DNA of 64,000 nt from contig CACFYZ010000002.1 in the NCBI GenBank assembly GCA_902570675.1, positions 1 to 64,000 of the forward strand. The letters are read 5' to 3'. The DNA comes from an uncultured Pelagibacteraceae bacterium (lineage in GTDB: Bacteria; Pseudomonadota; Alphaproteobacteria; Pelagibacterales; AG-422-B15). Each line of letters opens with the position of its first letter. Positions within the stretch are counted from its first letter, which is position 1. The translations under genes and the position numbers were made by a program. Shown in pieces: positions 50,108 through 52,635 of this stretch. The notes beneath the pieces were generated by a model. That model saw nothing but the letters and a program-made list of their open reading frames with translations. It did not search any database and was not told the origin of the DNA.

Positions 50108-51520
50108 TTACTTAGCTTTTTTCTTTACAGTCTTCTTTTTAACACTTTTCTTTTTTGTCGGTTTTTTTTCTGGCTGGTTTAAATTATTATAAAGTTTTAT
50201 AAACGAATCAACGTCAACCTCATTTTTTTTCAATTTAACCTTAGTTAAAATAAAGTCTACAATTTTATTTTCATAAATAGGCGCCTGCAATTGCATAGAT
50301 GCTTCCTGATTATTTTTATAATAATCAATTACTTTTTGTTCCTGTCCTTTAAAATTGCTGGCGTACTCAAATAATGCTTTATTCATCTCTTCCGGTGTTA
50401 CTGTGATATTGTGAGCTTTGCCAACTTCTTGCAAAATAAGTCCAAGTTCAATTCTATTTTTTGCATCTTCTCTGAACTTTTTTTCGTTATCTGCTGTGAG
50501 TTTATTATCCTTAATTTCTTTTTGATGATCTATTGAAGATGGATTTTGTGATCTTAGGTAGTTCTCCTTTAAATTATTAAACTCAGCCTCAATTAAATCA
50601 GCCGGTAAATCAAAGGTGTGTGTTTCTTGTAATTTTTCAAATAAATTCTTTTTATCAAGATTTTTAGTAAGATCATTATATTCACTCTGCATTTGCGCCT
50701 CTACCTTTGACTTTAGATCTTTAAGGTCAGATGCTCCCATGGTTTTAGCAAAATCATCGCTTACTTTTGCTTCTTCGGGTGAACTGATTTTTTTAATGAT
50801 GCACTCAAAAATAGCTTCGGCATTTTGAAGTTCTTTTGCTGAATAATCTTTTGGAAATTGTACCTTTACTTTTTTATTATCTCCTTTTTTTGTTCCAATT
50901 AGACCTTCTTCAAGGTCTTTCAGGTACCGTCCTGATCCAATAATTATTGTTTGACTCTCTGCTTTGCCACCATCAAAGTTTTTTCCGTCTATTGTTCCTT
51001 CATAATCAAGTAACACAGAGTCATCATTTTTAGCCTTGTAGTCATCTTTTTGTTCTTTGTAGGTTCTTTGGGACTTAGCAATTAAATCAATTCTTTTATC
51101 AACTTCTTTTTTATCAAGCTTAACTGATATGGAGCTAATTTCGATTTTTTCAAAATTAGCTAATTTAATATCTGGAAATATTTCAAATTCAATTTCAAAT
51201 AATTTATCTTCATCTTGTTTAACATCTTTTTCATTTTTAAAATTAACTTTTGGTTGTGATACCGGTCTGTGATTATTATCTTGGATAATTTTTGATACTT
51301 TCTGCTGTATTAAGGCATTAATGACTTCACTGTTTATTGCCTCACCATGTTTTTGCAAAATAATATTATTTGGAACTTTCCCAGGGCGAAATCCATCAAT
51401 TTTAATTGTTTTTTTTACTTCATTGATTTTTAAATCTATACTGTCAGCAAACTCTTTTGCCTCAACTATGAATTCATAAGCCCTTTTTAAACCTTTATTT
51501 GTAATTTCTTTATATTCCAT
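50108..51520 (-). CDS. tig: trigger factor
   Basis: [40 protein letters not shown]-like domain; Lys-rich C-terminal tail. Confidence 0.94.
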
Positions 51521-51527
51521 AACATTT

Positions 51528-51612
51528 TGGTGCGGATAGAGGGACTCGAACCCCCATGAGTTGCCTCACTGGTACCTAAAACCAGCGTGTCTACCGATTC
51601 CACCATATCCGC
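51528..51612 (-). tRNA. tRNA-Leu(TAG)
   Basis: Reverse complement GCGGATATGGTGGAATCGGTAGACACGCTGGTTTTAGGTACCAGTGAGGCAACTCATGGGGGTTCGAGTCCCTCTATCCGCACCA; anticodon TAG, class II variable arm, encoded CCA. Confidence 0.95.
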
Positions 51613-51696
51613 GATTAATAGAAAATGCAAAATAGACTATTTTTTAGATGTTTACAGTAAAATATTTAAATTTGATGCTATAGTTTATCTGAAATT

Positions 51697-52635
51697 ATGA
51701 AAAATATTGTTTTTCTTGATAGTTCAACTTTTCCAAAAAATATCTTATTCCCTAAACTTGATTTCAACCACTATTGGAAAAGCTACAAATTTACAAGTAT
51801 CTCAGATGTAAAAAAAAGAATTAAAAAAGCAAATATTATTATTACTAATAAAGTTGAATTAAATAAATATAATTTATGTACTGCAAAGAATTTAGAGCTT
51901 ATTGCTATTACAGCCACAGGTACAAATATAATTGATTTAGATTACTGTAAAAAGCACAATATATCAGTATGCAATCTAAGAAACTATGCCTCTGTTTCAG
52001 TTTCAGAACATGTTTTAACTTTAATGCTTACGTTATCTAAAAATATCAAAGGTCTTGAAAAAGATATAAGTAAAAAATTATGGCAACAAAGAAAAGTATT
52101 TGCATTATTAAGTAGAAAAATTAACGATTTGCATGGCAAAACACTTGGGATTATTGGCAAAGGCTCAATAGGCTTAAAAGTTGGAAAGTTAGCAAGAGCT
52201 TTTGGTATGAAGGTTAAATATTTTTCAGTTCGTAAATATACAAATACACAATTTATAAAATTTATTACCTCGGCTGATTACTTATCAGTCCATTGTCCTC
52301 TAAATAAAGATACAAAAAATTTAATTACCTTAAAGGAATTGAAACTTATGAAAAAAAATTTAATTCTTATTAATACTGCTAGAGGTGGAATTGTTAACGA
52401 GAAAGATTTAGTAAAAGCGTTAAAGAAAAATATTATTGCAGGTGCGGGTATTGATGTTGCGACTAAAGAGCCTCCTAATTCTTCTCATGCTTACTATACC
52501 ATTTTGAATCAATCAAATTTTATTTGGACGCCTCATACGGCTTGGGCCTCAGAGGAAACTCTTCAGGAAGCCATTAATCAATTAATTGCGAACATAAATT
52601 CTTTTTATAAAGGAAAAAAAAGGAATATTGTCTAA
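51697..52635 (+). CDS. D-2-hydroxyacid dehydrogenase (glycerate dehydrogenase/hydroxypyruvate reductase-like)
   Basis: GKTLGIIGKGSIGLKVGKLARAFGMKV, LILINTARGGIVNEKDLVKAL, TPHTAWAS. Confidence 0.9.
   Translation: MKNIVFLDSSTFPKNILFPKLDFNHYWKSYKFTSISDVKKRIKKANIIITNKVELNKYNLCTAKNLELIAITATGTNIIDLDYCKKHNISVCNLRNYASVSVSEHVLTLMLTLSKNIKGLEKDISKKLWQQRKVFALLSRKINDLHGKTLGIIGKGSIGLKVGKLARAFGMKVKYFSVRKYTNTQFIKFITSADYLSVHCPLNKDTKNLITLKELKLMKKNLILINTARGGIVNEKDLVKALKKNIIAGAGIDVATKEPPNSSHAYYTILNQSNFIWTPHTAWASEETLQEAINQLIANINSFYKGKKRNIV

Follow-up and report, generated by a model that had tools for sequence, protein, structure and literature searches.

A bacterial tRNA can share a transcript with a protein-coding gene, as in the Escherichia coli secG-leuU transcript and for the tRNA upstream of tufB, where RNase P and a 3' endonuclease release the tRNA. 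In mitochondrial tRNA punctuation, excision of the tRNA determines where an mRNA begins, giving it a minimal leader or none, and mitochondrial ribosomes have lost the anti-Shine-Dalgarno sequence (PMC5203842). The alphaproteobacterium Caulobacter has 375 leaderless mRNAs that are translated as well as others, and the same holds for its mRNAs lacking a Shine-Dalgarno (SD) sequence (PMC4117421). The leaderless 5' ends of Caulobacter and Sinorhizobium, located at the AUG, are usually transcription start sites. Finally, the pelagiphages HTVC011P, HTVC025P and uv-Fonsiphage-EPL integrate in the host tRNA-Leu(TAG) gene, bringing a replacement tRNA-Leu and leaving the prophage flanked by trigger factor (Chen et al, 2019; PMC6811365).

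Here, we analyzed the junction between tRNA-Leu(TAG) and tig, the trigger factor gene, in a 64,000-nt stretch of DNA ("the window") from a SAR11 (Pelagibacterales) genome of ~1.03 Mb in 32 contigs (78% complete). As in the E. coli transcripts, a tRNA and a protein gene are apparently joined in one RNA from which RNase P and a 3' endonuclease would release the tRNA, but the spacer here is 7 nt, leaving almost no leader, and the shared transcript is read from the arrangement of the genes. As in mitochondria, tRNA excision would fix the 5' end of an mRNA whose leader is very short or absent, but the 16S rRNA of this genome keeps the anti-SD CCTCC (3' end GGATCACCTCCTT) and the processing is putative. 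Like the Caulobacter and Sinorhizobium messages, tig mRNA would be translated without an SD and with a minimal leader or none, but its 5' end would come from RNA processing rather than from transcription initiation. The tRNA gene is also the one that pelagiphages use for attachment, again with trigger factor alongside, but the earlier phage work concerned integration and not tig expression. The features of the junction are, in order along the minus strand:

51657-51652, minus strand: candidate -35 element CTGTAA, 17 nt upstream of the -10 candidate
51642-51613, minus strand: conserved putative promoter/leader block AAATAGTCTATTTTGCATTTTCTATTAATC, abutting the 5' side of the tRNA, defined by conservation in the family
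51642-51630, minus strand: 13-bp palindrome AAATAGTCTATTT, inside the promoter/leader block
51634-51629, minus strand: -10 candidate TATTTT, inside the promoter/leader block
51612-51528, minus strand: tRNA-Leu(TAG) with encoded CCA (ARAGORN; Rfam RF00005, 57.2 bits)
51527-51521, minus strand: 7-nt spacer AAATGTT, which would be the tig mRNA leader after tRNA 3' cleavage
51520-50108, minus strand: tig, trigger factor, 470 aa (ORF; Pfam PF05697 from model position 1, E 1.8e-34)
50102-49479, minus strand: clpP-like ORF, 5 nt after tig, named from sequence and synteny rather than by family search
49357-48089, minus strand: clpX-like ORF, next in the tig-clpP-clpX order (sequence and synteny)

The tRNA-Leu(TAG) gene ends in ...TATCCGCACCA, with its last base at 51528 on the minus strand; the Rfam RF00005 match spans 51612-51531 and excludes the CCA. 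ARAGORN, the ORF call and the sequence agree with an earlier note on this DNA, which had placed the CCA end at 51528 and the tig ATG at 51520 with 7 nt between them. An Rfam scan of the region found no structured RNA apart from the tRNA. The Tig protein is closest to that of AG-337-G05 (97% identity), and the closest named genomes come from uncultured Pelagibacteraceae. The AAATGTT spacer includes an out-of-frame AUG (51525-51523) lying 5 nt ahead of the true tig AUG, and this AUG is common to the window genome and its 97%-identical relative. The tig start had been described as well supported, and we found that 51520 aligns with position 1 of the Pfam Trigger_N model and that almost all full-length Tig relatives align from residue 1.

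We considered and rejected a tig start further upstream, inside the tRNA: the 15 in-frame codons back to the preceding stop include no ATG, GTG or TTG. At four other loci (L009, L011, L013 and L018), an in-frame ATG lies two codons upstream of the aligned tig start, and the exact start is therefore ambiguous in these four.

The tRNA-tig arrangement is real, its linkage is ancient, and its tight spacing is order-wide and above chance. In an order-level sample of Pelagibacterales, the tRNA-Leu(TAG)-tig pair was present in all 70 genomes read, 68 of them with a spacer of 4-16 nt, and at 39 loci from the window's own family the tRNA lies 7-21 nt before tig. Spacing in relatives had been proposed as a check on the window, and tight spacing is kept throughout SAR11, at 4-21 nt in nearly all cases. 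The exceptions are two genomes, G105, which carries a prophage, and G087, which has a 115-nt spacer. SAR11 spacers vary freely in sequence (65 distinct sequences) and drift in length from 4 to 21 nt; their A/U content is 88%, and 103 of 107 have no SD.

In the long G087 spacer (L202), part of a tRNA D-arm is present as two inverted copies, CGCGTCTACCAATTCC and CGTGTCTACCAATTCC; either a genuine insertion or an error of assembly could account for them.

Across a class-wide sample of other alphaproteobacteria, tRNA-Leu(TAG) lies no more than 600 nt upstream of tig in 58 of 70 genomes, with a median gap of 69 nt (range 7-257 nt). The gap grows with genome size (Spearman rho 0.50, p 7e-5, with the genomes' shared phylogeny left in), and several other small-genome lineages reach 7-24 nt separately. 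Alteromonas carries a tRNA cluster including Leu(TAG) several hundred nt upstream of tig, so the neighborhood may predate the alphaproteobacteria. The simplest history would be an old linkage whose spacer shrank in streamlined genomes.

We next compared the junction with the rest of its genome, using 84 kb (the window and a further 20 kb of its contig) and simple ORF calling. Co-directional genes in these 84 kb are separated by a median gap of 3 nt, and an SD-like 4-mer occurs ahead of 9 of 74 genes, compared to a background of 5.9%. A median spacer of 3 nt has also been described in Pelagibacter ubique (PMC5069961). The 7-nt tig spacer itself contains neither an SD-like 4-mer nor a promoter-like site, in agreement with the earlier note's statement that there is no room for either outside the tRNA; the missing SD, which that note had treated as remarkable, is ordinary in a genome where so few genes are preceded by one. 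Other tRNAs of the assembly also lie close to the next ORF: Pro at 6 nt, Arg-TCT at 10 nt, Arg-TCG at 11 nt and Gln at 17 nt, with tRNA-Trp preceding secE (15 nt before the secE-like ORF) and tRNA-Gly preceding tuf. Together with the 3-nt median gap, these short distances make an abutting start codon a habit of the genome, not a property of tig. The tightest of them is tighter than at tig: 6 nt separate the end of tRNA-Pro(TGG) (L049, G000:C2 ~128589) from the ATG that opens an agmatine deiminase-like ORF.

In both SAR11 families, the conserved blocks that resemble a promoter all lie upstream of the tRNA. In the window's family, genera g1, g2 and g4 keep the ~30-nt block before the tRNA almost unchanged; genus g3 keeps the AAAATAGTCTATTTT part, which is present in all genera of the family. 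The TGTAA core of the -35 candidate is also kept while most of its flanks change. In most of the second family, ATTGGACA...TATATAA (for example TTGGACA...TATATAA) is fixed upstream of the tRNA while its surroundings vary. The -35 candidate CTGTAA agrees with the sigma-70 consensus at only 3 of 6 positions, and a consensus scan of 51480-51720 found no sigma-70-like promoter and no terminator-like site, also missing the upstream candidate. Since TATTTT and TGTAA match the consensus weakly and escape the scan, we infer a promoter here from conservation and position. Our literature search on SAR11 transcription start sites returned none on SAR11 among the matches listed.

We also considered a regulon built on the palindrome AAATAGTCTATTT and rejected it: the palindrome occurs once in the genome assembly, and we therefore count it as part of this promoter/leader.

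The tRNA and tig are co-directional with no terminator-like site between them. With promoter-like sequence only upstream of the tRNA, a single tRNA-tig(-clpP) transcript is likely, and the clpP-like ORF probably belongs to it. Alternatively, tig could have its own promoter within the tRNA gene, with the 3' half of the tRNA as its leader. Such a promoter would escape footprinting, because the tRNA body is conserved anyway. We nevertheless judge it very unlikely, given that the scan that missed the upstream candidate found no sigma-70-like site inside the tRNA either, that the tRNA is far more G+C-rich than the genome, and that relatives show clear promoter-like blocks upstream of the tRNA.

Cleavage of the shared transcript would require a 3' endonuclease. 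RNase E/G was found in 37 of 38 genomes searched, the sole miss being the incomplete window genome, and a standard RNase Z scored above the family cut-off in none of the 38, which yielded sub-cut-off sequences only. E. coli RNase E processes tRNA precursors (PMC3985628), and RNase E is the better candidate for cutting the A/U-rich spacer. In the predicted fold of the uncut tRNA plus leader, the edge of the acceptor stem lies ~12 nt before the tig AUG, so initiation on the uncut RNA should be hindered; the cut leader is predicted to be nearly unstructured (-2.3 kcal/mol). These predictions suggest that cutting of the tRNA makes the tig start accessible. They also bear on the idea that ribosomes translate the tRNA-tig chimera in its uncut form, which is compatible with the sequence and would fit the lack of space for another leader. 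We regard this as highly improbable: tRNA processing is generally fast, and the stable stem predicted 12 nt before the AUG falls where the 30S subunit requires single-stranded RNA.

Cleavage of the tRNA at its CCA, or beyond it, would produce a near-leaderless tig mRNA with its 5' end within ~8 nt of the start, and the leftover AAATGTT leader contains no SD. The translation of leaderless and non-SD messages in Caulobacter indicates that the machinery of this class tolerates such mRNAs. The out-of-frame AUG might be usable by a ribosome that seeks the 5' end; at nt 3-5 of the presumed processed mRNA, it would be awkward for strictly 5'-terminal leaderless initiation.

Taken together, we consider it probable that an old neighborhood has been squeezed, that tRNA and tig share a transcript, and that excision of the tRNA yields a tig mRNA with almost no leader, which would be a by-product of streamlining. 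The old alphaproteobacterial tRNA-Leu(TAG)-tig(-clpP) neighborhood would have had its spacer reduced to a few nucleotides as SAR11 genomes were streamlined. One promoter upstream of the tRNA, suggested by the conserved footprints, would drive the tRNA-mRNA transcript. The tRNA would be released by RNase P and a 3' endonuclease, which could be RNase E, cutting within the A/U-rich spacer, or an RNase Z-like enzyme that cuts after the CCA; tig mRNA would be left with a 5' end 0-7 nt before the AUG. Translation would proceed without an SD, through initiation of the leaderless or A/U-rich-start type, like that of most genes in this genome. Excision would expose the start codon and put tig transcription under the control of a constitutive tRNA promoter, but the arrangement need not serve regulation. 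A near-leaderless tig message after tRNA processing had been one of two possibilities raised before, and it is the reading best supported by the promoter-like block found only upstream, the absence of a terminator-like or promoter-like site between tRNA and tig, and the SAR11-wide spacing.

Prophages at this tRNA gene provide a further view of the junction. Genome G105 (contig C1, ~250238-287328; L197, L253/L258/L259) carries a ~37-kb prophage in the tRNA-Leu(TAG) gene upstream of tig, which we labeled T7-like from ORF content judged by eye and a layout resembling HTVC011P and HTVC041P rather than from a family search. The prophage interrupts the host tRNA at its anticodon loop: the 5' half is found at the distal end of the prophage, whereas the 3' half still stops 7 nt short of tig. 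An intact tRNA-Leu(TAG), oriented like tig, is located 164 nt upstream of that gene, beside an ORF that we infer to be the integrase from its position and by analogy with pelagiphages HTVC011P and HTVC041P. In each of these two phages, an integrase is annotated and a tRNA-Leu(TAG) gene is complete, and the anticodon loop recurs as a 13-15 nt copy that is likely the attP core. An integrase (annotated in the phages, putative in the lysogen), a core in the anticodon loop and a phage-borne tRNA-Leu(TAG) recur in HTVC011P, HTVC041P and the G105 lysogen. In HTVC041P and HTVC011P (L251, L252), the anticodon-loop copy lies ~110 nt downstream of the phage tRNA-Leu(TAG). The pelagiphages were found with a composite, non-natural probe built from several SAR11 tRNAs, and later comparisons used real sequences. 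The window genome has no prophage at tRNA-Leu(TAG), and a search of the phage collection with the window's own tRNA gave general tRNA-Leu matches only, with no SAR11 phage among the matches listed. Integration at tRNA-Leu(TAG) was already known; what G105 adds is that tig is intact even though the tRNA normally before it is split and its usual putative promoter lies 37 kb away.

The G105 and G087 genomes appear to weaken any strict need for tRNA cleavage 7 nt upstream of tig, and so bear on a regulatory account in which tRNA-Leu maturation gates tig: the uncut chimera would be untranslatable, tig would report processing capacity, and the short spacer would be under selection. Preservation of the short spacer across the whole order fits such gating, as do the predicted overlap of the acceptor stem with the normal ribosome footprint and spacers that are 88% A/U and mostly SD-free. 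Against it, spacer length drifts between 4 and 21 nt over 65 distinct sequences, relatives have spacers of 60-250 nt, other tRNAs of the genome abut unrelated genes, and two SAR11 genomes depart from tight spacing, one through a prophage that splits the host tRNA and leaves tig intact. We therefore view gating as possible but unlikely, and the pattern can be explained without it. The broader proposal of a SAR11-wide tRNA-punctuation device, in which 3' maturation of tRNA-Leu(TAG) gates tig and pelagiphages rewire the gate through their own tRNA-Leu, strikes us as similarly doubtful. The other possibility raised in the earlier note, translation that depends on the chimera and so couples a chaperone to tRNA maturation, found no direct support; tig is kept intact both behind 60-250 nt spacers in relatives and in the split-tRNA lysogen.

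Few cells in the ocean are as abundant as SAR11 bacteria, whose genes lie so close together that the usual leaders and ribosome-binding sites are mostly absent. The tRNA-Leu(TAG)-tig junction is a clean, order-wide case in which RNA processing, not transcription, probably sets the 5' end of an mRNA, and the prophages that split this tRNA are a natural experiment on whether tig depends on the tRNA cut.
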